From positions 1-51,703 of the forward strand of contig CAIYGI010000096.1 in NCBI GenBank assembly GCA_903925685.1: a stretch of DNA of 51,703 nt. Direction: 5' to 3'. Under the pieces are notes generated by a model. That model saw only the letters and a program-made list of their open reading frames with translations, searched no databases and was not told the origin of the DNA. This document shows positions 846 to 45,828 of this stretch, piece by piece (the first letter of the stretch is position 1; each line of letters starts with the position of its first letter). The translations under genes and the position numbers were made by a program. This DNA comes from an uncultured bacterium (lineage in GTDB: Bacteria; Verrucomicrobiota; Kiritimatiellia; CAIKKV01; CAIYGI01).

Positions 846-1424
846 ATGTGGCGCTGCCTAAACCAGTCTAATCGCCCGCCGGCTCAAGTCCGGCAGGTCC
901 GGCGCGGACAGGCGATCATCGAATCCTCGCTGGTTCTGGCCCTGGTCTGCCTCGTGCTCTTCGGTTTGTTCGAAATTTCGCAGCTTTTCGCCGCGCAGGA
1001 GATTCTGGACTACGCCGCCGCCCGCGGCGCGCGTGCGGAAACGGTTGGGTTCAATAGTTTCATGGTGCAGAAAATCGTCCGCGTGGGGGCTATTCCGAAC
1101 GCCGGACGTTTGATCAATCCCGTCATCATCGGCGGGCCAGCCGCGCAATCCGATGCCGAACTGGCCCGCATCCCGCTTTACCTTGGCGGCGAGAACGCCG
1201 GTCGCCTGACGGGCATCCTCGACTACGACCACTGGGATTCCGTCGGCCTCCCAGTATCAACGCTGGTCGGTGGGTTGATCCGTGAACATCTAAGCCAGAC
1301 CTACGATCTGCGCGGCTTCCCGTTCAGCCAGGCCTTCTACAGTGGCGACACTCTGCCGCTGGAGGGCGAAGCCTACATCGAAAGCCACTATCCGCTCTAT
1401 ATGAACGAGGGCTATGGACCATAA
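846..1424 (+). CDS. TadE-like pilus assembly pseudopilin
   Basis: TadE-like proteins are membrane-anchored minor pseudopilins of the Tad pilus. The N-terminus has a basic stretch, then RRGQAIIES (processing site with Glu at +5) and a transmembrane helix of about 22 residues at roughly 25-48. A periplasmic domain of about 140 residues follows. ATG 846 has a CGGAGG ribosome site 5 nt upstream, and a more upstream reading frame would pass through repeat DNA. Its last codons overlap the proposed start of the next pseudopilin gene at 1414. Family membership rests on the prepilin-like N-terminus and the locus; the periplasmic part is not recognisable by eye. Confidence 0.7.
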   Translation: MWRCLNQSNRPPAQVRQVRRGQAIIESSLVLALVCLVLFGLFEISQLFAAQEILDYAAARGARAETVGFNSFMVQKIVRVGAIPNAGRLINPVIIGGPAAQSDAELARIPLYLGGENAGRLTGILDYDHWDSVGLPVSTLVGGLIREHLSQTYDLRGFPFSQAFYSGDTLPLEGEAYIESHYPLYMNEGYGP

Positions 1425-2979
1425 CACGAACGGCTCGCGAGGACGCTCGCCCTCCCTGGCGGGTTATTGTGACTCACGAGATGATTCCATGGGAGGGCGA
1501 GCGTCCTCGCGAGCCGCAACGCCGCGCGCGAGCCGCAGCGCACGCCGCGGGCAGACGATGATCTTCATCATCTTCGCCCTGGTCATCGGCGCCTTGCTGG
1601 TGCTCTTCAATGCCGATTTGCACCGGACCATCTTCGCCAAGTTCGTCAGCCAGAACGCCGGCGACAGCGCCGCGCTGGCCGCCGCGCGCTGGCAGGGCGC
1701 CACGCTCAACCTGATCGGCGACCTCAACGTGCTCAAGGCCGTCGCCGTCAGCCGCAACGACCCCGACACCGTCAACACGCTGACGGAACTTCAGAAACGT
1801 TTGAACTTCGTCGGGCCCATGGCCGGCCTCGTCGCCGCCCAGCAGGCCGCCAAAAACAACGGCATTTTCGACAATCCGGACTTCAAAAGAATACTACTAG
1901 AGCATGCCCAGGTCGTGCGCACGGAATATCCATCGAAAACCGATCCGAACAGCGGCCAGTTGCTTTTCCCCGAGCCGTGGATAGGCGCCTGGCGCGACTA
2001 TGCCGACATGATCGAGATGGTTGCAAACGACGGCGTGGCGGCGGCGCCCGACAACGCGCGCTACTACACGGACTTCACCGGCGGCCACATGCTGTTGCGC
2101 CTGGATTTTTACAACGCCGTCGCCAGTGCCGACTGGTGCTGGTTTCTACACCACGCCATGACTCTTTTGCGGACCTATCAGAATTACCATTCCTGGCCGC
2201 CGTTGCCGCCGCAAGTCACGCTCAACCATCCGGTTAATTGCGAATACTTCGGACTCGGCCTGGCTTGCGCCAGCGGCACCGTCTCAAAAGCAGACGGCAC
2301 CATCGATGCCATCAATGTTGCGCTTGACGAGCGCCGTCCCAGCGGCGTCAGGGAATCCGTCATCACCAACCAAACGCTGACTGCCGCCTGGTTCTGGTTC
2401 GATCCGGGCGCATGGACCGCGTGGTCCGGATTCTCGCCCGCCGACGGCGAAATATTCCCGGCCAAGGGCTCGATCAAGCCGCAGTACAATTATCTTGGGG
2501 CCGACTCCGTCGTTCGCATCCAGACGGAATTCGACCGCCTGACGCCCAGCGTCTCCAATGCCGCCATCACCTGGACCGCGGCGGCGAAGGCCTTCGGCTG
2601 CATGACCAACGACCAGGCCATGCTCGAACGCCCCGACACGCTCAGCCTCGTGCTGCCGGTTTTCTCCGAGGTGCGTCTTTTCCCCGTGGATGTCTCCACG
2701 GCGCCCGAAGGCGGCGCCTTCAACATCGCCTGGCGCGAACACATCGAAAAACACCTCACGGGCTGGACCGACTATCAAGGGTACCATTCCGGCTACGCGC
2801 AGTACGGCCCGGGCTTGCTCAATACGAGCTGCTTTTACTGCCGCCAACTGGTACGTTGGGAAGACCCGCTCTTTCGCGGAACAGGGATCCAGTGGCTGGC
2901 GCAACCGGGAAACGCCGCAAAATGCCAGCTTACCGGCGGCGGCGGCGGACCGGGCGGGGGCACGCATCGTGGACATTAA
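1414..2979 (+). CDS. TadG-like pilus assembly protein
   Basis: After an odd N-terminal leader, RRGQTMIF and a single transmembrane helix begin at about residue 46. The following segment (QNAGDSAALAAARWQGATLN) matches the post-helix region of TadG/TadE-like pilus proteins, and a periplasmic domain of about 430 residues with a Gly-rich tail ends the protein. ATG 1414 overlaps the previous stop (1422-1424) and has GAGGG upstream. With this start, residues 6-35 are encoded by a perfect 26-bp inverted repeat (1431-1516). An alternative start at ATG 1489, inside that repeat, would still keep the membrane anchor. The family is fairly secure; the exact start is not. Confidence 0.65.
   Translation: MDHNTNGSRGRSPSLAGYCDSRDDSMGGRASSRAATPRASRSARRGQTMIFIIFALVIGALLVLFNADLHRTIFAKFVSQNAGDSAALAAARWQGATLNLIGDLNVLKAVAVSRNDPDTVNTLTELQKRLNFVGPMAGLVAAQQAAKNNGIFDNPDFKRILLEHAQVVRTEYPSKTDPNSGQLLFPEPWIGAWRDYADMIEMVANDGVAAAPDNARYYTDFTGGHMLLRLDFYNAVASADWCWFLHHAMTLLRTYQNYHSWPPLPPQVTLNHPVNCEYFGLGLACASGTVSKADGTIDAINVALDERRPSGVRESVITNQTLTAAWFWFDPGAWTAWSGFSPADGEIFPAKGSIKPQYNYLGADSVVRIQTEFDRLTPSVSNAAITWTAAAKAFGCMTNDQAMLERPDTLSLVLPVFSEVRLFPVDVSTAPEGGAFNIAWREHIEKHLTGWTDYQGYHSGYAQYGPGLLNTSCFYCRQLVRWEDPLFRGTGIQWLAQPGNAAKCQLTGGGGGPGGGTHRGH
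1431..1516. repeat. BIME-like double REP hairpin inside the tadG-like gene
   Basis: Arms 1431-1456 and 1491-1516 are perfect 26-bp inverted repeats separated by 34 nt. Read outward, each arm is GGAG followed by a 20-nt imperfect hairpin with a TCCT loop, which is the head and foot layout of REP sequences; two inverted REPs make a BIME. The element lies within the N-terminal coding region of the TadG-like protein. Two elements of similar layout occur at 5600-5687 and 25626-25713. Confidence 0.75.
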
Positions 2980-2980
2980 T

Positions 2981-3631
2981 ATGAAGTCAGAAGTCAGAAG
3001 TCGGAAGTCAGAGGTCGGAGGTCGGAGATCGGAGATCGGCATCAATCGTCCGACCTCTGACCTCCGCCTTCCACCTTCCGCCCTCCGCCTTCCGACCTCC
3101 GACCTCCGACTTCTGACCTCCGACCTCCGACCTCCGACCTCCGACTCCCGGCACGGCCAGGCCATCATCGAACTGGTCGTCGGCCTGGTCGTGATGTTGA
3201 TCGTCTTTGCCGGTTTGCTGCAAATCGGCGGACTCAACCGTTTGCACACACGCACCATGATCGAAGCGCGCAGCGATGCCGCCAACCGCATGTTCTTCGG
3301 CGCCGCCACGCCCGATGCCCACTACATTCTCGATTGCACACCCGGACCGGACGGCCGCCGATATACCCGCGACGACGCGTTTGACACGGCCGCCGTGGGC
3401 AACTTTCAGGGCCATGTGCTGGCCTATGCCAAATTGATTCCGCTAGAGGGCGTCAGGCCCCACAATTCCATCAACAATTTGGACACCGATCCGACCGCCT
3501 TGGACCTGGTTCATGGACAACAGACTTACGCAACCAACCTCTATCCGATCATGCGCGATCTGGTTTACGGCACCAATTCCATTGACGTGCATTCCGATGT
3601 CTTCATGACCAGGATCGAGGGTTTGCCTTGA
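2981..3631 (+). CDS. TadE-like pseudopilin with a repeat-encoded N-terminus
   Basis: The recognisable part starts at about residue 60: RHGQAIIEL (prepilin-like, Glu at +5) followed by a transmembrane helix and a periplasmic domain of about 130 residues. The first 55 or so residues are a seven-residue-periodic peptide (motifs such as KSEVRSRKSEV and PTSDLRLL) translated straight through a heptamer DNA array at 2984-3146. ATG 2981 lies 2 nt after the previous stop, so translation is probably coupled. Whether the repeat-encoded leader is made, or initiation occurs further in, cannot be decided here. It is the third TadE/TadG-type pseudopilin in a row. Confidence 0.6.
   Translation: MKSEVRSRKSEVGGRRSEIGINRPTSDLRLPPSALRLPTSDLRLLTSDLRPPTSDSRHGQAIIELVVGLVVMLIVFAGLLQIGGLNRLHTRTMIEARSDAANRMFFGAATPDAHYILDCTPGPDGRRYTRDDAFDTAAVGNFQGHVLAYAKLIPLEGVRPHNSINNLDTDPTALDLVHGQQTYATNLYPIMRDLVYGTNSIDVHSDVFMTRIEGLP
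2984..3146. repeat. Heptamer arrays forming a large hairpin (GAAGTCR / CCTCCGA family)
   Basis: About eight consecutive 7-bp units of the GAAGTCA, GAGGTCG and GAGATCG kind run from 2984 to 3039. After a 9-nt gap, about fourteen reverse-complement units (TCCGACC, TCTGACC, TCCGCCT and similar) run to 3146. The arms can fold into a near-continuous stem of about 50 bp. No stop codon interrupts the coding frame, so the array is read as a seven-residue repeat in the TadE-like protein. Confidence 0.85.
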
Positions 3632-8932: not shown

Positions 8933-8972
8933 TTGACAATCAAGAGCGTCTATGGTCACATGTCCATGGTCA
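8933..8972 (+). promoter_or_regulatory. Promoter and operator-like repeats for the toxin-antitoxin pair
   Basis: TTGACA at 8933-8938 with a 17-bp spacer to a weak TCACAT box (8956-8961) could be the promoter. Two copies of ATGGTCA (8952-8958 and 8966-8972) lie 14 bp apart across the predicted start of transcription. Phd/VapB antitoxins normally repress their own operon, so these are candidate operator half-sites. Confidence 0.4.
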
Positions 8973-9005
8973 TATTACCCGATACAGCGTTCGCGGGAGG
9001 TGGTT

Positions 9006-9233
9006 ATGGATGTCGCGGCAGGCTTGTTCAAGGCGCAGTGTTTGAAGTTGATGGATCGTGTGGCGGAGAAGCGTGAAACGATTACGGTCACCAAGCGGGG
9101 CAAGGCGGTGGCCAGACTGGTGCCGGTTGCGACGACTCTGAATCGTCGGCTGTTCGGCTATCTTCGCGGGAAGGGGAAGATCACGGGTGACATCGTCGCC
9201 CCCACCGGCGAGGCGTGGGAGGCGCAGCGATGA
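9006..9233 (+). CDS. Phd/YefM family antitoxin
   Basis: This 75-aa protein would bind and neutralise the PIN toxin encoded next to it and repress the shared promoter. The N-terminal Phd/YefM fold is visible as VAAGLFKAQCLKLMDRVAE, then TITVTKRGKAVARLVPV; the C-terminal part (from about residue 45) is the toxin-binding tail. ATG 9006 has a GGGAGG ribosome site about 6 nt upstream and fits the known N-terminus better than upstream starts. Its stop overlaps the toxin start by 4 nt. Confidence 0.85.
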   Translation: MDVAAGLFKAQCLKLMDRVAEKRETITVTKRGKAVARLVPVATTLNRRLFGYLRGKGKITGDIVAPTGEAWEAQR

Positions 9234-9664
9234 CGCGACCGGTTCTGCTGGATACCCATGTGTGGGTGTGGCTGATGCTGGGGGACAACCGCTTGGGCAG
9301 CGCCAATCGCCGGATGTTGGAAACGGCCGTTCCGGATGGGCGACTGCGCGTTTCGGTCATCTCGGTATGGGAAGTCGCGATGTTGGAGGCCAAGGGACGA
9401 CTGACCCTGGCGGCGGATTGCGAGGGTTGGATTCTTGAGGCGCTCGCCGCGCCGGGTATCCGGCTGGCGGAAATCACCCCCCGCATCGCCATCTCCAGCA
9501 CCCGGTTGCCGGGTGTGTTTCACGGCGACCCCGCCGACCGCATGCTCGTCGCCACCGCCCGCGAATCCGAGGCCACCCTTCTCACCGCCGATCAAGCGAT
9601 CCTTCAGTATGGAAGCGAAGGTTATGTACACGCCATGCGCGCAGAACCGTTGTCTGGTCGCTGA
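9230..9664 (+). CDS. PIN-domain toxin (VapC-like ribonuclease)
   Basis: PIN-domain toxins are Mg-dependent RNases that cleave tRNA or rRNA when the antitoxin is degraded. The 144-aa product keeps the acidic active-site set: D8 (LLDTHVWVW), E48 (SVWEVAML), D103 (DPADRML) and D121 (LLTADQAI). The THVWVWLMLGD start is typical of the PIN subgroup paired with Phd-type antitoxins. ATG 9230 overlaps the antitoxin stop (ATGA). All catalytic residues are present, so it looks functional. Confidence 0.88.
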   Translation: MTRPVLLDTHVWVWLMLGDNRLGSANRRMLETAVPDGRLRVSVISVWEVAMLEAKGRLTLAADCEGWILEALAAPGIRLAEITPRIAISSTRLPGVFHGDPADRMLVATARESEATLLTADQAILQYGSEGYVHAMRAEPLSGR

Positions 9665-9733: not shown

Positions 9734-10864
9734 ATGAAAAACGTTCCGCAAATCCATTCGTTTATAATTATGACTGGGGCGCTGATGTTGGCGGGAGGCG
9801 CCGTGCTGGCCGCCGATCCGCCCGCGGTGTCGAATGACGCGCCGGCGGCAATTCGCAGGGGGTTGGACTGGCTGGCAGCGCAACAAAAGCCCAACGGCGC
9901 CTGGTCCAACGACGACTTTCCCGCCATCACGGCGCTGGCGCTGGAAGCCTTCCTGCACGGCTCGCATCCGATGAAGACCGCGATCGTCGCGCGCGCCACG
10001 GCCTACCTGGGCGCCTGCGTGCAACCCGACGGCGGCATCTATCGCAAGATCCCCGGCAAGGGCGGCGCGATGATCAATTACAACACCGCGATCTGCATGG
10101 CCGCGCTGCACGCCACGGGCGATCCGGCATGGCGTCCGATCGTGCTGCGGGCGCGCCGTTTCGTGGCGGCCGACCAGCATCGCGGCGACGATCTTTACGC
10201 CGGCGGCATGGGTTACGATTCCGGCTCGGGGCGGGAATATGCCGATCTGAGTAATTCCTGGATCGCCTACGAGGCCATGCGCCGCACGCAGTCCGCGGAG
10301 GATCGGCGGCCGGCCGGCGAGGTCAAGGTGGACCTGGACTGGGATGCGGTGCAGCGTTTCGTGTCTCGTTGTCAGAACGACGCCACGGCGGGCAGCGAAG
10401 AAGCGGGCGGATTTTTTTACCGGCCCGGCGAAAGCAAGGCCGCCTCGACCACCAACGCGGCGGGCAAGGTGATTCTACGCGCCTACGGATCGATGACCTA
10501 TGCCGGACTGATGAGCCTGATCTACGCCGAGGTCAAGCGCGACGATCCGCGTGTGCGATCGGCTTTCGACTGGGCCGCCCGGCACTGGTCGCTGGACGAG
10601 AACCCGGGGCTGGGTCAGCAGGGCTACTATTATTTCGCGCAAACACTGGCCAAATGCCTGGATGCTTACGGCGCCAACGCGATTCCCACGCCCAACGGTC
10701 CGGTCAGCTGGCGCACCGCTTTGTCGGCCAAGCTGGCCGCGCTGCAGAAACACGCCCCGGCGGGCGATTACTGGGTCAACGAAAACGCGCGTTTTTGGGA
10801 AAACGACCGCGTGCTGGTCACCGCCTATGCGCTGATCGCGCTGGAAACGGCGGGGAATAAATAA
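9734..10864 (+). CDS. Exported prenyltransferase/squalene-oxidase-repeat protein
   Basis: A signal peptide (residues 1-27, cleaved near VLAAD) is followed by an alpha/alpha-toroid domain of the terpene cyclase/prenyltransferase-repeat class. Visible repeats include GLDWLAAQQKPNGAWS at about 43-58, YLGACVQPDGGIYRK and LSNSWIAYEAMRR. Many PVC bacteria encode such exported toroid proteins with no known substrate, and the DxDD motif of true squalene cyclases is not seen, so enzymatic cyclisation is unlikely. AGAGAGG precedes ATG 9734. Its stop overlaps the next start (TAATG at 10862-10866), coupling it to an M50 protease gene. Confidence 0.75.
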   Translation: MKNVPQIHSFIIMTGALMLAGGAVLAADPPAVSNDAPAAIRRGLDWLAAQQKPNGAWSNDDFPAITALALEAFLHGSHPMKTAIVARATAYLGACVQPDGGIYRKIPGKGGAMINYNTAICMAALHATGDPAWRPIVLRARRFVAADQHRGDDLYAGGMGYDSGSGREYADLSNSWIAYEAMRRTQSAEDRRPAGEVKVDLDWDAVQRFVSRCQNDATAGSEEAGGFFYRPGESKAASTTNAAGKVILRAYGSMTYAGLMSLIYAEVKRDDPRVRSAFDWAARHWSLDENPGLGQQGYYYFAQTLAKCLDAYGANAIPTPNGPVSWRTALSAKLAALQKHAPAGDYWVNENARFWENDRVLVTAYALIALETAGNK

Positions 10865-17286: not shown

Positions 17287-17294
17287 AGATGGTT

Positions 17295-17356
17295 GTTAGG
17301 TGTTAGGTGTTAGGTGTTAGGTGTTAGGTGTTAGGTGTTAGGTGTTAGGTGTTAGG
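17295..17356. repeat. Perfect heptamer array (GTTAGGT)8.9
   Basis: Eight identical GTTAGGT units plus six further bases run without a mismatch from 17295 to 17356. It fills the gap between convergent nspC and dapL, and the dapL stop codon (17352-17354, complement) lies inside the last unit. It is the only perfect array in the window, suggesting recent expansion. A short reverse-complement tail (CCTTAGG) follows at about 17361-17367. Confidence 0.95.
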
Positions 17357-24289: not shown

Positions 24290-24434
24290 GGTGGAGGGTT
24301 GAAGGTAGAGGGTGGATGGTGGAGGGTGGAGGGTGGAGGGAAAACGGCCGCTTTCTCACTGAGCGGGCCATCCTTGGGCCTGCCACCGCACACATCAGCC
24401 TTCCCTCCACCCTCCACCTTCCACCCTCCACCCT
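24290..24434. repeat. Heptamer arrays forming a large hairpin (GGTGGAG / CCACCCT family)
   Basis: Seven 7-bp units (GGTGGAG, GGTTGAA, GGTAGAG, GGTGGAT, then three GGTGGAG) fill 24290-24340. After about 58 nt, CCACCCT/CCACCTT units run from 24399 to 24434 as the reverse complement. It occupies the gap between the convergent solute-binding and MacB-like genes, where it could act as a bidirectional structural terminator. Confidence 0.88.
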
Positions 24435-24442
24435 ATTTCAGC

Positions 24443-26458
24443 TCAGCCGTCGCGCAACGTTTCGGCGGGCGGCAGGCGGGCGGCGACGCTGGCTGGCGAC
24501 CATGCTGCTAGCGCCCCGAGCACGAGACCGGCGAGGAGAGGCAATAGCCAGACCGCCGTCGTGATGACAAAGGGCACCGGACCGAGTTGCGAAAGCAAAC
24601 GCGCGGCGGGCAACGCCAGGAGCAGTCCAAAGCCGGCCGCGGCGGCGGTCAGCAGGCAGGCCTCTGTCACAAAAAGCGCGGCAATCGCGCCGCGCCCGGC
24701 GCCGAGCGCGCGGCGCAAACCAATCTCCAGCGTGCGGTCGCGCACACTGGCGCCGAGCAGTGTCGCCAGCAATGCCGCGCCAAGAAACAAACCGAACCCC
24801 GCCGCGCCGCCGGCCAGCAGGCCGACGTTGCGTTGCAGCCGGCGCAGGCCGGCAAGCAGCATCTCGGGCGTCGTGGCCGCAAGCGCGCCAGCGCGCAGAT
24901 CGGGCTGACGCAGCAGCGCCAGCGCGGCGGCGGCCGTATGCGCCGGCCCGCGCGGTCCGCGCACCAGCAGCATGTCGAGCCGCGCATCGGCCACCGGCCA
25001 GGCGGCCAGCGGCACAACCAACAGCCCTTCGGCGCCTCCGTCCGCGGCGGCGCCATCGTCGGGCAAGCTCCCGACCAGCGTAAAAACCTGGCCGCCGATG
25101 GAAATCGCCGCGCCCGGCCGCCAGCCATTGCGGGCGCAGGCGGCGGCGCTGACGACGGCGCAGCGGGCGCCATCAAGTTCGTCCGCGCCGTCAAGCAGAC
25201 GTCCGGCGACGGGCCGCCAGCCGCGTATTTCGGCGAGCGCGGGCGATGCGGCAAGCGCGGTGAGTTTCGTTCCGTCGCCGCCCGGGGTCGGAGTGAAGCG
25301 GCGCACGCCGGCCATACACCATGCGGGAAAATTCCGGCTCAGACAGCGCAGATGCGCCTCGGTCAACAGCCCGCCGCCGCTTGCCCGCTCCCCGGCCGGC
25401 ACGATGGCGACCACCTCCGCGCCCAGTTCGGTCTGTAGCGTGCGCGCCGCGGCGCGCAGTCCGGACAAGGCGGCCAGCAGCAGCGTCAGCACCGCGAATC
25501 CGGCCGCCAGCGCGCCCAGCACCAACAGCATGCGGCCGGGACGCAGCGTGAGCCCTTCGGCCAGGTCGCGCAGGGCGGGGCGGACGGTTACCAGTGGGTG
25601 AATTTCGAGGTTTTCGCAAACATACGGCGGACGACACGGAGGTCGTCCCTCCATTGTCGAAAACAAATCGTTTTCTCCGTCTTCTGGAGGGCCGGGCTCC
25701 GTCCCGGCCGTTCTTGCTTTGGAAACCGGGATGGCGTCTTGCTCGACGCAACCGTCGCGGCAGCGCAGGTGGCGGGTGGCGATCTTGAGCAGGGCTTCGT
25801 TATGCGTCACCATTACGATGGTCAGGCCGTCGGCGTGCAGCCGCCGGAAAATATCCAATACTTGTTCCGCGGCGGCATGGTCGAGATTGCCGGTGGGTTC
25901 ATCGGCCAGCAGCAGTCGCGGCGGATGGGCGATGGCGCGGGCGATCGCCACGCGCTGCATTTCGCCGGCCGAGAGCAGACGCGCGCGGCGGTTGGCCTGT
26001 TCCGCGAGACCGACCGATTCCAGCGCGGCCAGCGCGCGCGCGCGCGCCGCATGGCGCGGGACAGGCAGATAGCGGAAGCGGAACAGCACATTCTCCAGCG
26101 CCGTGCGATGCGGCAGCAGACAGAAGCGCTGGAAGACCATGCCCAGCCGCGCCGCGCGCCAGGCGTTGCGCTGAGCTTCGGTCAGGGCATCGGTGGCCTG
26201 GCCGTCGAACCACAGACGGCCCGCGGTCGGCGTATCGAGCAGCGCCAGCAGGTTTAGCAGCGTCGTCTTGCCCGCGCCGGAGGGACCGGTGAGCAGCACG
26301 AATTCGCCGGGCATCACGTCAAAAGAAGCCTCGCGCAGGGCCGCCACCGGTCCGCCAAGCGCCGGAAATGCGCGGGCGACGTGGGTCAGACGAAGAATGG
26401 GAAGACGGAGGTCGGAGGTCGGAAGTCCGAGATCGGAGGTCGAAGGGAGTGCGGTCAT
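24443..26458 (-). CDS. MacB-like ABC transporter: ATPase fused to FtsX-type permease
   Basis: Residues about 20-240 form an ABC ATPase of the MacB/LolD group: Walker A GPSGAGKT at 58-65, signature LSAGE (usually LSGGE) at 162-166, Walker B LLLADEPTGNLD at 182-193 and the switch His at about 219. The rest is a permease with one transmembrane helix (about 305-330), a periplasmic domain and three C-terminal helices, like MacB. MacB works with a MacA adaptor and TolC to export peptides, lipids or antibiotics; matching adaptor and TolC-like genes lie at 31051-33839, beyond an accessory island. The first 20 residues are encoded by a heptamer array and the linker at about 247-277 by a BIME-like repeat, so the true start is uncertain. 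Confidence 0.8.
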   Translation of the reverse strand: MTALPSTSDLGLPTSDLRLPILRLTHVARAFPALGGPVAALREASFDVMPGEFVLLTGPSGAGKTTLLNLLALLDTPTAGRLWFDGQATDALTEAQRNAWRAARLGMVFQRFCLLPHRTALENVLFRFRYLPVPRHAARARALAALESVGLAEQANRRARLLSAGEMQRVAIARAIAHPPRLLLADEPTGNLDHAAAEQVLDIFRRLHADGLTIVMVTHNEALLKIATRHLRCRDGCVEQDAIPVSKARTAGTEPGPPEDGENDLFSTMEGRPPCRPPYVCENLEIHPLVTVRPALRDLAEGLTLRPGRMLLVLGALAAGFAVLTLLLAALSGLRAAARTLQTELGAEVVAIVPAGERASGGGLLTEAHLRCLSRNFPAWCMAGVRRFTPTPGGDGTKLTALAASPALAEIRGWRPVAGRLLDGADELDGARCAVVSAAACARNGWRPGAAISIGGQVFTLVGSLPDDGAAADGGAEGLLVVPLAAWPVADARLDMLLVRGPRGPAHTAAAALALLRQPDLRAGALAATTPEMLLAGLRRLQRNVGLLAGGAAGFGLFLGAALLATLLGASVRDRTLEIGLRRALGAGRGAIAALFVTEACLLTAAAAGFGLLLALPAARLLSQLGPVPFVITTAVWLLPLLAGLVLGALAAWSPASVAARLPPAETLRDG
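25626..25713. repeat. BIME-like double-hairpin element (copy B) within the macB-like gene
   Basis: This is the homologue of the 88-bp segment at 5600-5687 (76 of 88 identical). The left REP is a perfect 7-bp stem (GGACGAC/GTCGTCC) with loop ACGGAG. The right REP is GGAG, stem GGCCGGG, loop CTCCGT, stem CCCGGCC. The two loops are exact complements, so loop-loop pairing is possible. It encodes a linker between the ATPase and permease and lies in the opposite orientation to its gene compared with copy A. Confidence 0.8.
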
Positions 26459-26633
26459 CTCAGGTGGAAGGTGGAGGGTGGAAGTCAGAGATGCGAGGTC
26501 AGAAGGCTATGGCGCATACGGGCCTGTCTGCGTGCGCACACGCACAGGCAGGCATGAAGGTGAGAGGCAGTACTCGCAGAACTCATTGCGTACTTGATGG
26601 ACAAATTCACCCTCCACCTTCCACCTGAACCTC
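26400..26633. repeat. Mixed heptamer arrays upstream of the macB-like gene
   Basis: Units of the GGAGGTC kind run from 26400 to 26446. A second block (26462-26507) starts as AGGTGGA/GGGTGGA and passes into AGTCAGA, GATGCGA and GGTCAGA, so two families share one 7-bp phase. Reverse-complement CCACCTT-type units follow at 26607-26633. An imperfect hairpin rich in TGCGTG/CACGCA lies between them at about 26523-26552. The first block supplies the N-terminal codons of the macB-like gene. No gene is seen in 26459-26675. Confidence 0.8.
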
Positions 26634-31050: not shown

Positions 31051-32384
<1,334 letters not shown>

Positions 32385-32388
<4 letters not shown>

Positions 32389-33839
32389 TGGGAGGGCTCC
32401 GATCCGGATTTGAGACAGTTGGGAACGTCGGTCAGTGTGCCCATGGTCCAGAGCAGGCGGTAGGCCGCGACGGTGACGGCCGAACGGGCGGCCAGCCAGC
32501 GTTCGTCGGCGTCGCGCCATTGCGTTTCGGCATCCGAGACATCGAAGGTGGTGGCGCGGGCGCTGCTGTAAAGGCGGCGCATGAGTTCAAGCCGTTGCCG
32601 GGCGGCGGCAAGGGTTGTCCCGGCCAGCGGCAGTTCGTCATTGCTGCGGTGCAAGACGTCGAGGGCTTGCAGAACCTGCAGTCGGATGGCGGATTGCACG
32701 GTGTCGGAGCGCAGGCGGGCGACGCGTTCGGTGATCTCGGCCTGCGACAGGGCGCGCTTTTCGGCGCGCGGGGGAAAGTCCGAGAGCAGGCGCACACCGA
32801 CCATCCAGGCGTTGTGATCCAGCGACATGGCGGCGGACGCGGTATCGCCCTGTCCCTGACGTTCGTAGCGCGAGGCAAGTTCGATGTCGGGCAGAAGCGT
32901 CTGCCGGGCGATGCGCACGCCGCGGCGGGCATCGTCGATGTCCTGCAGAATCTGGGCATAGTCCAGGCGATTGCTGAGCGCGATGGCGGCGGCCTCGTCG
33001 GCGGCGGGCGCGGTGACAACGAAACGCGGCCCCGACAGCGCATCGAACGGGACGCTGGGCGGCAGGCCCAGCAGCTCGGCGAGCTCGGCGCGGCGGGCGG
33101 TGAGGCGGGCCGCTGTATCGGCCTGCTGCTGATGAATGGTACCGCTGGCGATTTCAGCGCGCAGCGTATCGCCGCGGGCGGCGCGGCCCTGGCGATCGCG
33201 GGCGCGGGTAAGGCGCAGGAAGGCATCCAGGCGGGCAACGGCGGCGGTATCGTTCGTGAGGCGGCGCTGCAGGCGATAGAGTTCCTCGTGCAGTTCCACC
33301 ACGCGCAATACGATGTCGGCGCGCTGGAGTTCGAGATCGCGGCGGGCGGTCTGCACCTCGCGTGTGGCGCGCACGAGTGGTTCGGCGTTCACCAGGCTGC
33401 CGCCGCGGCGCAGGAGCGGCTGGCGGACCTCGATGGCCACACGGCCCTCGTTCACGTCGGGGGCGTTGTCGAGCGTGGTCTGCTGGAAGCGCGGTCCGGC
33501 GCTGAGCACCGTGCCGGCCTCGGTGGCGCGCGTGGCAAACAAGCCGGCGTCAATGTAACGGCCATCGTCGCGCGCCTCGGCGCCGCCCACCGGGCGCAGC
33601 GTCCAGCGGTAGGTATCGGCGGCGGCCCCGGCGCCAACCTGCCGGGATTCGAGCCCCAGGCGGCGGGACTCGATGGCGCGGTTATGGGCCAGGGCGTAGT
33701 CGATGGCGGCGGGCAGGGTCCAGGCGCACGGCGCGTCATTCGTCGCTTCGGACGCCGCGGCTGCGCGCGGAGCACCGCCGGCCAATGCGGCGAGCAGCCC
33801 CACGGCGGGCAGCCAGCGCCTGAACGCGCGAAAGGTCAT
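32385..33839 (-). CDS. TolC-like outer membrane efflux protein
   Basis: The 484-aa product has a signal peptide (about 1-30, ending AAAASEA) and two outer-membrane-efflux (OEP) half-repeats of long helices. Typical segments are WTLPAAIDYALAHNRAIESRRLGLE near the start and RLDYAQILQDIDDARRGVRIARQTLLPDIELASRY in the second half. TolC trimers form the exit duct of tripartite pumps. It overlaps both neighbours by 4 nt, downstream of a glycosyltransferase and upstream of the adaptor gene, so an export function linked to a glycosylated product is possible. Confidence 0.82.
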
Positions 33840-34705
33840 GGCGTGCGGTCCGGAGTCTTGGTCTTGGCCCGGGGAAAGACGGCCGGCAGGATGTCGAAGC
33901 GGCCGCGGCTCTTGTGGTTCATCTCCCAGAGTTTGGCGTACTTGATGAAGACGCCGTAGGAATTGAGCATCGCGATGATCAGCCCGTGCATTCCGTCCAG
34001 AAACCCCAGCCGGACAAAGTAGCCTTTCAGGAAACGGATCGGCGGCCGCAGCAGCAGGTCGGCCCAGCGGAAGGGGCTTTCCTGGACGAACTTCTGCTGG
34101 GCGGTGATGGTGGAGAAACGGTTCAAGGTGTCCAGATGGTCGCGAATGTCGTCGTAGGTGTAATGGTAGAGCGGATTGCGCAACCGCTTGACGGGACCGT
34201 TCACGATCACATGATCGTGCGGTTCCTCGCCTTCGGTGCGTCCGTTGTTCTTTTTGAAGAGGCGCAGTTTGACATCGGGATACCACTCCCCGTGCCGGAT
34301 CCAGCGGCCTAGGTAATAGACTTGCCGTGGAAACTCGAAGCCGACGTAGTGATGGGGCTTGCCGGCCTGCAACTCGGCTTTTATTTCCTGGATCAACCCG
34401 GTCGAGACCTCTTCGTCGGCATCGAGAAAGAGAATCCAGGGATGCACGGTCATTTCGCGCACCAGATTCCGCTGGCCGACGTAACCAAGCCAGGCGTGCT
34501 GGTATACACGATCCGTGTAACGCCGGCAGATTTCCAGCGTGCCGTCGGTGCTGAAACTGTCCATGATGACCAGTTCGTCGCACCAGGTCAAGCTGCGGAG
34601 GCAGCGCTCGATCTTGCTTTCTTCGTTGAAAGTGAGCACGCAGGCTGAGATGCGTTCGGTTGTCGCCGGAGACTTGTCTTCGTCAGGCATGGTGAGTCGG
34701 CTCAT
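33836..34705 (-). CDS. Family 2 glycosyltransferase (WaaE/KdtX-like)
   Basis: The 289-aa GT-A enzyme shows ISACVLTFNEESKIERCLRSL at about 19-39, VIMDSFSTDGTLEIC, and the metal-binding LFLDADEEV. These match the LPS-core type GT2 group (WaaE/KdtX, inner-core glucosyl transfer). The C-terminal half (RFLKGYFVRLGFLDGMHGL) is membrane-associating in this group. Start ATG 34705 overlaps the FHA gene stop by 4 nt; its stop overlaps the TolC-like start. The donor and acceptor cannot be told from sequence. Confidence 0.85.
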   Translation of the reverse strand: MSRLTMPDEDKSPATTERISACVLTFNEESKIERCLRSLTWCDELVIMDSFSTDGTLEICRRYTDRVYQHAWLGYVGQRNLVREMTVHPWILFLDADEEVSTGLIQEIKAELQAGKPHHYVGFEFPRQVYYLGRWIRHGEWYPDVKLRLFKKNNGRTEGEEPHDHVIVNGPVKRLRNPLYHYTYDDIRDHLDTLNRFSTITAQQKFVQESPFRWADLLLRPPIRFLKGYFVRLGFLDGMHGLIIAMLNSYGVFIKYAKLWEMNHKSRGRFDILPAVFPRAKTKTPDRTP

Positions 34706-39774: not shown

Positions 39775-41748
39775 ATGCGTACTAGACTGATCTGCGGCTG
39801 CGCGCTGTTGCTGGCATTGTTGGCTGGCGCACAAGCGCGCGCCTCGGAAGGCTTCGAAGAGCTGGTCGCCCAGGTGCGATCGGGCACAAACGATGCCGCC
39901 CTCGCGGCATACATCGCCGCCTCGCCGGTAGCCTACGATCTGACGGTTGATGAAATCCTCTTCCTGAGCGACCTCGGAGTATCGTCCGAGACGATCGCAG
40001 CCGCGATCGACCACGGCAAGAAACTGTCCGCGGCGGCGCCGTCCGTTCCGCCGCCCGCCGATACGCCGGTTCCACCGACGTCCGTCCCGCCGACCGAAGA
40101 TACGCCTGTTCCACCGCCGCCGCCCGAGGAAACACCCTTCGTCGATCTCTCCGGCGGACAGGCCACGGTGCCGCCGGCCACGGCGGTGGTGCAGGCGCCG
40201 GTTTATGCCGCGCCGACGGCTGCCCTGCCGCCGCCCGAGTCCACCGATGTCTCGTACTTCTACCAGAGCATGGCGCCCTACGGAAGCTGGCTGAACCTCG
40301 AGGACGGCTGGTACTGGCAACCGACAGTCATGGTTGTCAACCGGGAATGGCGCCCCTACTGCGAACGCGGCCACTGGGTCTACACAGACTGCGGCTGGTT
40401 GTGGCAGTCGGATTATTCCTGGGGCTGGGCGCCCTTCCACTATGGACGCTGGCGGCATCACGCGCGCTATGGATGGGTCTGGATGCCGGATACGGTCTGG
40501 GGTCCGGCCTGGGTGGTCTGGCGCGGCGGCGAAGCGGCGGTCGGCTGGGCACCCTTGCCGCCGGGCGCCGTGTTCGAACCAGGCGGCGGGTTCTCCTTCC
40601 ACGACCGGCACGCCCAGGCCGGATTCGCCTTCGAACTGGACGAGGGTGCCTTCACCTTCGTCGAGTCCGCCCATTTCTGCGAGCCGGCCCTGTCCCGGCA
40701 CCGCCTGCAGCGCGAAGAGGCACTGCGCGTATACAACAACACCACGATCATCCAGGACAGTTACACCTTCAACGACCGCCGCATTTTCAACCACGGCCCG
40801 CCTGTCGGCAGGATCGCAGGCGCAACGCACCGCAAAATCAGTCCGATTCGCATTCTCGACCAGCCGGCCCCGTCCGGCCGTCCATCGCGGACGGGCGTCG
40901 CCGCCGGGGAGACGATTAACGTATTTCGCCCGCATGTGTCGCCCACGACGCACGAAATGCCGGACGCCATTGCGGTCCGGGCTCGCGCACAGTCTGCTGC
41001 CGCACGTCACGTCGGCAGCGCCGTCCGCGATAGCCGTCCCGTGGCGGGCGCGCCGCAACCCGCGCTGCTGGACTACGGCAATGGATCGAACACGCGCACT
41101 TTCAGCGAACGCGGCCTCTCCAGCCGCGCTGCGGCGGGCGCGACGATAGTCCGCACGCCCGTGCCGTCGGCCATGGGCTCCGAGGCGGCCGCCGGGCGCA
41201 ACCACGCCGACCTGGAACAACAGGCGCATGCGGTCGCAGCGGCCGCACGCCAGCGTCAGGCGGAGGAAGTCGCGGCGCGACAGCAGCAGCAACAGGAGCT
41301 CCAGCGGCGCATGCAGGACACGGCGCGGCAACAGGAATTACAGCGGCGCACCCAGGACACCCAGCGCCAGCAGGAGACGCAAAGGCAGGCGCAGGATGCG
41401 ATGCGCCAGCAGCAACAGGAGTTGCAGCGGCGCATGCAGGACGCGGCGCGGCAGCAGGATGTACAGCGTCGTGTCCAGGAATCGCAGCGCCAGCAGGAGG
41501 CGCAACGGCAGGCGCTCCAGTCGCAACGCCAGGCGGAGGAGGCAGTCGCGCGGCGGCAGGAAGTCGTGGTTCGCCAGCAGGAGGCGCAGCGTCGCGCCCC
41601 GGACACTGTTGTCCGTGAGCGGGCGCAGCGTCCGGCGCAATCGCCGTCGGCGAACGCCATTCAGGACTACGGTAACGGACAACTGACGGGCGCCGCCAGC
41701 GCGCGCGGCGCGTCAAGCCGCGACGGAGCGAGCCGCGGCGGCAGATAA
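39775..41748 (+). CDS. Exported DUF6600-type protein with a Gln/Arg-rich coiled-coil tail
   Basis: The 657-aa protein has a signal peptide (about 1-23), a Pro-rich region, and a central DUF6600 domain at about 160-270. Typical segments there are FYQSMAPYGSWLNL, GWYWQP, WRPYCERGHWVYTDCGW and YSWGWAPFHYGRW, whose Trp/Tyr spacing suggests a beta-structure. The last third is an internally repeated stretch of QQQQELQRRMQDTARQQ-type units (DNA 41270-41560), probably a long coiled coil. ATG 39775 has a G-rich site upstream. It is followed 20 nt later by a DUF2950 gene; secreted proteins of these kinds are often neighbours. Function unknown. Confidence 0.75.
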   Translation: MRTRLICGCALLLALLAGAQARASEGFEELVAQVRSGTNDAALAAYIAASPVAYDLTVDEILFLSDLGVSSETIAAAIDHGKKLSAAAPSVPPPADTPVPPTSVPPTEDTPVPPPPPEETPFVDLSGGQATVPPATAVVQAPVYAAPTAALPPPESTDVSYFYQSMAPYGSWLNLEDGWYWQPTVMVVNREWRPYCERGHWVYTDCGWLWQSDYSWGWAPFHYGRWRHHARYGWVWMPDTVWGPAWVVWRGGEAAVGWAPLPPGAVFEPGGGFSFHDRHAQAGFAFELDEGAFTFVESAHFCEPALSRHRLQREEALRVYNNTTIIQDSYTFNDRRIFNHGPPVGRIAGATHRKISPIRILDQPAPSGRPSRTGVAAGETINVFRPHVSPTTHEMPDAIAVRARAQSAAARHVGSAVRDSRPVAGAPQPALLDYGNGSNTRTFSERGLSSRAAAGATIVRTPVPSAMGSEAAAGRNHADLEQQAHAVAAAARQRQAEEVAARQQQQQELQRRMQDTARQQELQRRTQDTQRQQETQRQAQDAMRQQQQELQRRMQDAARQQDVQRRVQESQRQQEAQRQALQSQRQAEEAVARRQEVVVRQQEAQRRAPDTVVRERAQRPAQSPSANAIQDYGNGQLTGAASARGASSRDGASRGGR

Positions 41749-44322: not shown

Positions 44323-45828
44323 ATGAAAGTGCTGGTTCGACTGGGACTGATTCTGGCATCGTCGGTGATATTGTCGGCATTGCCCGCCCTCGTGCAGGCC
44401 GAAGATTATTCCTACACGACCAATGACGACAACACGATCAACATCACGGGCTACAACGGCCCCGGCGGTGCGCTTTCCATCACCAATATGCTCAACGACC
44501 TGCCGGTCACTAGCCTCGGGGAAGGGGCCTTCTACGACTGCGCCAGCCTGACCAGCGTTACGATCGGCGACGGCGTAACCAATATCGGGGCCTCGGCCTT
44601 TTACTTCTGCATCGGACTGACAAACGTAGCGATCCCCGCCAACGTTACCGCCATTGGAGAAGGTGCGTTCGCATCGTGCCCCAGCCTGACTGCAATAATG
44701 GTCAATGAATCGAATGCGGTCTTCAGCAGTTTGGATGGGGTATTATTCAACCAAAACCAGACCACGCTGATCAGATGTCCGGAAGGCAGGGCGGGAAGTT
44801 ACGCCATTCCCAACGGCGCAACCGGCATCCTGGCCTTTGCGTTCTCGGATTGCGCCATCCTGACCAACCTAACGATTCCCGCCAGCGCCACCGGCATCGG
44901 GGACGGGGAGTTCTCGTCGTGCCGCGGCCTGACCGCCATCATGGTCAATGAGTCCAATTCGGTCTTCAGTAGTCTGGACGGGGTATTGTTCAACAAGAGC
45001 CGGACCACGCTAATTCGATATCCGGCTGGCAAAACGGGACGTTACATCATCCCCGGCGGCGTCGCCAGCATCGGGCAAGAATCTTTCGTTATCTGCACCA
45101 ACCTGACCGGCATTACGATCCCCGCCAGCGTAAGCAGCATAGGACAACAGGCCTTCTATAGCTGCTCAAGTCTGACCAACATTGCGATCCCCAACAACGT
45201 CAACAGCATCGGGGACAGGGCCTTCGTGTGGTGCATCGGTCTGACCAGCCTCACGTTCGGCAACAGCCTCACCTCCATCGGAAACGGGGCGTTCATGTGG
45301 TGCGTCAGCCTGACCAGCGTCGAGCTCCCCAACAGCCTGGTCAACCTCGGAAGCGGGGCGTTCGAAAACTGCTTAAGCCTGGTCAGCCTCACATTTGGCG
45401 ACGGCGTCACCAACATCGGGAGTCAGGCGTTCTATTACTGTCCCAACCTGACGGAAGCCTACTTCGAAGGCAATGCCCCCGGCCTCGGCGCCCCGGATGT
45501 GTTCGCCTATACACCCGATGTAATCGTCTACTACCTGCCGGGAACGACCAACTGGGTCTCATCGTTCGCCGGCCGTCCGACCATGCTATGGAACCCGCAC
45601 ATGCAAAACGACGCCACTTTCGGTGTGCAGGCGAACCAGTTCGGGTTCACCATCGCCGGGACGAGCAACCTGACAGTCGTCGCGGAATCCTGCACGAACC
45701 TGCTGAATCCCGTCTGGTTCCCTGTAGGAACCAACACGCTGGCTGGCGGCTCGTCCTATTTCGGAGATCCGCTGTGGACGAACTATCCCGTCCGTTTCTA
45801 CCGCATCCATTCGCCGTTCGCACCGTGA
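44323..45828 (+). CDS. Secreted BspA-like leucine-rich-repeat protein
   Basis: The 501-aa protein has a signal peptide (about 1-27, ending VQAED) and about 12 LRR_5/BspA repeats of 23-25 residues, such as AFYDCASLTSVTIGDGVTNIG and SFVICTNLTGITIPASVSSIG. Two copies of a longer insert (AIMVNESNAVFSSLDGVLFN and AIMVNESNSVFSSLDGVLFN) reveal an internal duplication. The C-terminal 90 residues form a separate domain ending in FYRIHSPFAP, a tail also found as an orphan remnant at 42761. BspA-like proteins bind host or surface molecules; the target here is unknown. Confidence 0.82.
   Translation: MKVLVRLGLILASSVILSALPALVQAEDYSYTTNDDNTINITGYNGPGGALSITNMLNDLPVTSLGEGAFYDCASLTSVTIGDGVTNIGASAFYFCIGLTNVAIPANVTAIGEGAFASCPSLTAIMVNESNAVFSSLDGVLFNQNQTTLIRCPEGRAGSYAIPNGATGILAFAFSDCAILTNLTIPASATGIGDGEFSSCRGLTAIMVNESNSVFSSLDGVLFNKSRTTLIRYPAGKTGRYIIPGGVASIGQESFVICTNLTGITIPASVSSIGQQAFYSCSSLTNIAIPNNVNSIGDRAFVWCIGLTSLTFGNSLTSIGNGAFMWCVSLTSVELPNSLVNLGSGAFENCLSLVSLTFGDGVTNIGSQAFYYCPNLTEAYFEGNAPGLGAPDVFAYTPDVIVYYLPGTTNWVSSFAGRPTMLWNPHMQNDATFGVQANQFGFTIAGTSNLTVVAESCTNLLNPVWFPVGTNTLAGGSSYFGDPLWTNYPVRFYRIHSPFAP

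Follow-up and report, generated by a model that had tools for sequence, protein, structure and literature searches.

Heptamer repeat arrays recur in the predicted prepilin leader of TadE-like genes in Kiritimatiellia

The TadE-like pseudopilin gene of an uncultured bacterium of the class Kiritimatiellia begins within an array of heptanucleotide repeats. Judged from its reading frame and available start codons, this array is obligatory N-terminal coding sequence—barring non-standard start codons—in its own and in a sister genome. Such border repeats are probably tolerated where the protein sequence is disposable, chiefly in the TadE leader, which is predicted to be cleaved; they are not a dedicated leader-making device or a neuO-style phase switch. 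The window analyzed here is the whole stretch of 51,703 nt (contig CAIYGI010000096.1 of assembly GCA_903925685.1) and part of a 4.12-Mb genome in 347 contigs. It had been interpreted before from its letters alone. This sequence-only reading, which saw heptamer arrays as the N-terminal coding sequence of a TadE-, a MacA-, and a MacB-like gene and as a source of variable protein leaders, is partly supported, with its generalization on arrays and leaders being too broad.

The array-coded leader of TadE

The TadG-like gene (1414–2979, forward strand; Pfam Tad PF13400, E = 1.5e-4) ends in ..GGTHRGH with its stop codon at 2977–2979. This type of TadG ending—..GGG/TxRGH before the stop—is kept directly 5′ of TadE through most of the class. 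The TadE-like gene (2981–3631, forward strand) starts at ATG 2981, 1 nt past the TadG stop, which is the single in-frame start of the array region. The array itself consists of two inverted arms around a short loop: a purine-rich arm (GTCRGAR)n at 2983–3039, coding KSEVRSRKSEVGGRRSEIG on the forward strand, and a pyrimidine-rich arm (YTCYGAC)n at 3049–3146, coding PTSDLRLPPSALRLPTSDLRLLTSDLRPPTSDS on the same strand. It is degenerate, with the longest run of identical units comprising only a few, and its RNA is predicted to fold at about −80 kcal/mol (z = −4.7 versus dinucleotide shuffles). The 58-residue array-coded leader is followed by GQAIIELVVGLVVMLIVFAGLLQIGG, which bears the predicted prepilin-peptidase site G↓QAxxE (3155–3172, forward strand), a motif present in 40 of the 41 TadE orthologues scanned. 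From the end of the array to the conserved core there is no ATG, GTG, or TTG, and the next start codon after 2981 falls within the membrane helix, past GQA..E. Only the used frame is open across the array, while both other frames contain TGA; the earlier expectation of a repeating peptide in each frame thus fails for TadE.

Between 2981 and 3628, no Pfam family is matched at E ≤ 0.001, the TadE model included; the neighboring TadE paralogue (ORF 771–1421, gene 846–1424) matches Pfam TadE at 3.4e-9. The assignment as a TadE pseudopilin comes from the prepilin site G↓xxxxE with a hydrophobic helix after it (HGQAIIELVVGLVVMLIVFAGL) and from the surrounding Tad locus, which includes Flp-like, RcpC/CpaB, T2SSE/FHA, and T2SSF genes. 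The genome holds one Peptidase_A24 (prepilin peptidase) gene. TadE maturation is attributed to TadV in the title of Tomich 2006, a paper listed among the references of PMC11067988 and PMC12075869.

In the sister genome (about 90% nucleotide identity), TadE likewise has its ATG 1 nt beyond the TadG stop, and the GQA core is kept as well. The leader, however, comprises 37 residues there versus 58 here, that is, it is 63 nt, 9 units, or 21 codons shorter.

The Tad locus shows further variable elements. A GC-rich hairpin with 25-bp arms (1432–1515, forward strand) lies in the TadG leader and is absent from the sister—a different element in the same type of slot, so that the leaders of the adjacent genes TadG and TadE contain unlike repeats. 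Past the tad genes, a slot (8952–9664) holds, as read by eye, a Phd/YefM-like antitoxin and a PIN-like toxin; its sister counterpart (G001:C85, ~10328–10530, likewise read by eye) holds a HicB-like gene and hence a different toxin–antitoxin module.

TadE leaders across the class

TadE orthologues were found in 40 of 58 relatives, and lag-7 repeats (identity of at least 0.71, shuffle p ≤ 0.01) were scored over the 186 nt that precede the GQA codon. Such repeats are present in 15 of 40 TadE leaders (37%)—phylogenetically non-independent cases from seven families, six of them from the single family f7—versus 16 of 1182 other windows at the same loci (Fisher 6e-16); of the MacA and MacB 5′ ends, 2 of 48 pass. 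In G015 the array is mainly upstream of the TadE start; the other 14 have it mainly downstream of the start, ahead of the GQA codon. All 15 leaders are in frame and open from ATG to GQA. Their units vary by genome (AGAATGC, GTCAGCG/GTCTGTC, GACGACA/AAAATCG, GTCRGAR, CCCTTTT), and a single repeat unit for the whole TadE slot is accordingly rejected.

The arrays go along with longer leaders, the distance from the TadG stop to GQA having a median of 125 nt with arrays versus 44 nt without (p = 1e-4). In another genus, g30, leader lengths in G036, G060, and G061 are 21 and 42 nt apart, and G059 breaks this 21-nt rule. In family f24, G034 carries its array between MDTN and KSGQA, where the family member G092 reads MDTNHKKSKSGQA; the 28 extra codons correspond to 84 nt or 12 units. 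Six further TadE orthologues of this family are negative, five other than G034 being array-free by the lag-7 test. The proposal that leaders vary by gain or loss of units is therefore borne out for TadE, by the sister pair and by the steps in g30.

MacB- and MacA-like genes

The MacB-like ABC transporter gene (24443–26458, reverse strand; Pfam ABC_tran, MacB_PCD, FtsX) has the N terminus MTALPSTSDLGLPTSDLRLPILRLT, in which a heptamer array (26400–26446, reverse strand) is translated as residues ~5–20. A second purine-rich arm, GGTGGAR (26463–26502), lies just 5′ of the start and has an inverted partner at 26609–26628. The ATG at 26458 is kept in the sister, which supports the MacB case, while the array residues differ, the sister coding MRAPSDLRPPLLRLT at the same place. 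This length difference amounts to 30 nt—in frame, and not a whole number of units. In this genome, no ATG, GTG, or TTG occurs between array and conserved core; the sister has a TTG after its array. For this genome, the start-codon survey supports the MacB array as obligatory N-terminal coding sequence, again barring non-standard start codons. The MacB N terminus is cytosolic and not cleaved. The linker between the ATPase and permease parts (25586–25739) contains hairpin repeats unrelated to those of the sister (AGGGTTC heptamers), both in frame.

The MacA-like (HlyD-type) gene (31051–32388, reverse strand; Pfam HlyD_D23, E = 3.9e-6, just below the cut-off) begins with repeat DNA as well, as had been noted, though of another kind. 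The repeat (~32283–32388, reverse strand; coding MNIPQPTFNSQCPRKCGDVQLDIGHSLLDIGYSV) belongs to a dispersed palindromic element of ~105 bp, loosely built from TTGGANA heptads, which occurs several times in this genome and also in the sister and a further family; ten copies aligned from three genomes have a mean column identity of 76%. Every in-frame standard start of MacA in this genome (one ATG, three TTG) lies inside the element. In the sister, the element is absent from this place and the DNA at the MacA start is unrelated, a GTG start being possible beside the signal peptide; in most relatives, the MacA start directly precedes the signal peptide. The ATG (32388–32386) shares bases with the stop codon of the gene for the outer-membrane efflux protein (32385–34583; Pfam OEP), and this ATGA had been taken as support for the start. 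It says little on the array, since the sister has the same overlap before unrelated DNA. An array-coded MacA N terminus is hence plausible, and the weaker case.

All three genes thus start within repeat DNA with no standard start downstream in any of them, and initiation downstream of the repeats in all three is impossible with ATG, GTG, or TTG. The peptides quoted for them earlier (KSEVRSR..., LDIGHSL..., PTSDLRL...) are correct translations.

Heptamer arrays at gene borders

In the window, lag-7 runs number five and cover 321 nt, and every other lag in the range 2–12 gives 0–2; the arrays at 2983–3146 and 26400–26446 were identified by TRF and direct reading. A GTCRGAR-type pattern has 88 matches in the genome, and the reversed pattern, as a control, has 7; the units are GTCRGAR/GGTGGAR and others. 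The genome-wide statistics cover ~284 kb around these matches, sampled by unit sequence and not by gene context, and gene edges were called with an in-house hexamer model that had been trained on this DNA itself. For the 47 intergenic arms therein, the median distance is 13 nt from the outer edge to the flanking gene and 198 nt from the inner edge to the other gene, the outer distance being the smaller in 41 of 47 (p = 1.8e-7). Thirty-two of the 47 arms lie within 25 nt of a gene, versus 8.9 expected at random placement. The purine-rich strand points outward from the gene, alike at 5′ and 3′ ends.

Examples between genes are an inverted pair GGTGGAG/CTCCACC filling a convergent intergenic region (24290–24434, non-coding) and a perfect, likewise non-coding (TGTTAGG)9 between convergent genes (17294–17356). 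At the counterpart of the latter, the sister has about three GGTGGCA-type units instead, which reads as array turnover at a fixed place, outside genes too. The literature on tandem repeats in Kiritimatiellota offered nothing useful.

Arrays as a general source of N-terminal leaders find no backing in this genome. Most of about 23 other array-bearing 5′ ends have a good start downstream of the array, which often touches the ATG, and some arrays elsewhere code C-terminal tails or internal loops in frame. The repeats at the TadE-like gene at 846–1424 and at a solute-binding-protein gene (22948) are non-coding, lying upstream of conserved starts. Inside a gene, an array codes GWSPEVGGRRSEGGGQ in a loop of a putative isoleucyl-tRNA synthetase (G000:C192, L221, ~2449–2495; identity read from sequence). 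A single ORF on G000:C284 (L229, 1228–1511) includes a 94-residue stretch coded by several successive, different heptamer families. The window also contains long in-gene tandem repeats at 41284–41515 and 44617–45130, with periods of 123 and 243 bp, of which the array at 44617–45130 reads as repeated coding sequence.

Proposed explanation and alternatives

Heptamer arrays, often as inverted arms, would originate and expand chiefly in intergenic DNA and be turned over there, and these border repeats would occupy any unconstrained DNA. From the conserved TadG C terminus to the mature TadE helix, the sole unconstrained DNA would be the TadE prepilin leader. The tadG–tadE intergenic DNA is almost nil; the array lies within this leader and would be translated as 58 Arg-rich residues. 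Prepilin peptidase would then cut at the predicted site HG↓QAIIE and remove the leader, therefore leaving the mature pseudopilin unchanged, and the array would be neutral. Frame selection would allow only in-frame array states to survive; therefore, length changes would be multiples of 3 nt, often 21 nt—which is three units or seven codons. MacB and MacA might be further sites tolerating an N-terminal extension, and the in-frame arrays in the IleRS-like loop, in other loops, and in C-terminal tails occur as tolerance predicts.

The architecture is reminiscent of neuO of Escherichia coli K1 and the CUS-3 prophage, where AAGACTC repeats are translated as an N-terminal repeat of RLKTQDS heptads (PMC3046976). 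As in neuO, heptanucleotide repeats directly behind the TadE start codon would be translated and are variable, with three units making seven residues; slippage by one heptamer would shift the frame and toggle TadE together with the Tad pilus. The 7-nt unit just behind the start (PMC13001214, PMC3046976) and the 21-nt steps expected between ON states would fit such phase variation. The neuO units, however, are identical, turn expression ON or OFF through the frame, and are retained in the mature protein, whereas the units in most TadE leaders are imperfect and often inverted-paired, with no long identical-unit tract in this genome, and belong to a leader whose cleavage is predicted. Moreover, 65.6% of neuO genomes are OFF (PMC13001214), while the 15 TadE leaders, one genome sequence each, are without exception open and give no mixture of in-frame and out-of-frame alleles, which makes a switch very improbable. 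We give equally little credence to the arrays being 5′ untranslated DNA with the true starts downstream. Downstream starts do hold for most array-bearing genes here, and for the first TadE gene (846) and the gene for the solute-binding protein (22948); four codons ahead of GQA, G060 and G061 offer an ATG, and the TTG of the sister MacB could serve likewise. Against this stand the lack of standard starts from array to core in TadE and MacB of this genome and the confinement of the MacA starts to the element. Starts that are translated are predicted to yield the array-coded peptides KSEVRSR.. (TadE, 2981) and PSTSDLGLPTSDLR.

Palindromic repeats are found in frame inside unrelated proteins in Rickettsia (PMC10969869), and the arrays might be copies of a comparable mobile family inserted into proteins. 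The MacA element, a dispersed repeat common to several genomes and families, is the nearer match and does behave as a conserved family inserted at many sites, and there are in-frame array copies in the IleRS-like and other proteins. Unlike the Rickettsia elements with their conserved ~150-bp families, however, the TadE arrays share periodicity and position only, with different units at the same position between genomes, and neither they nor the MacB array show such a family; the GTCRGAR/GGTGGAR arrays share the unit alone, without fixed sequence or length and with varying loops. Mobility is hence quite unlikely as the general account. Only slightly better placed, and still unlikely, is selection for RNA hairpins that would fix the expression ratio of TadE to TadG or shield the mRNA, with the peptide being incidental. 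Strong hairpins are predicted in G059 (z = −6.8), G000 (−4.7), and G036 (−2.7), with arms that are genome-specific yet complementary, and their position at the tadG–tadE junction is recurrent. Yet there is no excess fold stability in the sister G001 (z = 0.0) and most other array-bearing leaders (G061, G017, G047, G030, G026, G012, and G049), the two arms in G060/G061 are different heptamers, and many class members have no TadE array at all. A conserved hairpin at the TadE leader is weakened by the sister value in particular. Tolerance of border repeats remains the preferred explanation, but the TadE enrichment is far above that at ordinary gene borders, and something may favor this slot beyond plain tolerance; the uncleaved MacB N terminus and the step lengths of G059 likewise count against it. 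This leaves room for the TadE leader as a selected hypervariable site, where heptamer-coded, Arg-rich leaders, acquired repeatedly and stepping by 21 nt, would tune pseudopilin insertion or processing and hence Tad pilus assembly, the unit being interchangeable; we regard this as doubtful.

Relation to other known repeats

Outside of the systems discussed above, G-rich, G-quadruplex-forming heptamers (GGGNATC) of Xanthomonas and Nostoc lie within 0–50 bp of genes, with the G-rich strand being the non-coding one upstream and the coding one downstream (PMC4692102). Arrays at gene ends throughout the genome and the same polarity are found here in the 47 arms, but the unit is not GGGNATC, many arms form inverted pairs, and some of the arrays encode protein. 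In Beggiatoaceae, according to the parts of PMC4679880 consulted, TAACTGA direct repeats end within a few nucleotides of start codons, few of them with Shine–Dalgarno sites, and some overlap ORFs. They resemble the present arrays in adjoining start codons and differ from them as a single unit, mostly in one orientation, proposed as a regulator-binding site; the same parts report no recurrent protein leader among them. In Borg genes, tandem repeats give rise to extra disordered peptide without loss of frame (PMC9879509), their units being perfect and divisible by three, whereas the heptamer unit here is neither a multiple of three nor perfect. In the literature on related repeats, we found no description of arrays recurrently occupying the leader of one protein across a class.

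Conclusions

For genome annotation, the TadE case is a warning that array-coded N termini can be real, even though most similar arrays at start sites are non-coding. Within this class, border repeats appear to have entered a protein many times and where this could be predicted, in the dispensable leader of a single secreted-pilin gene. The TadE slot thereby offers a natural series of no array, array, longer array, and different unit, which might allow for an understanding of how repeats become coding. The same series bears on how far prepilin leaders can change, and on whether frame selection alone explains the 21-nt steps.
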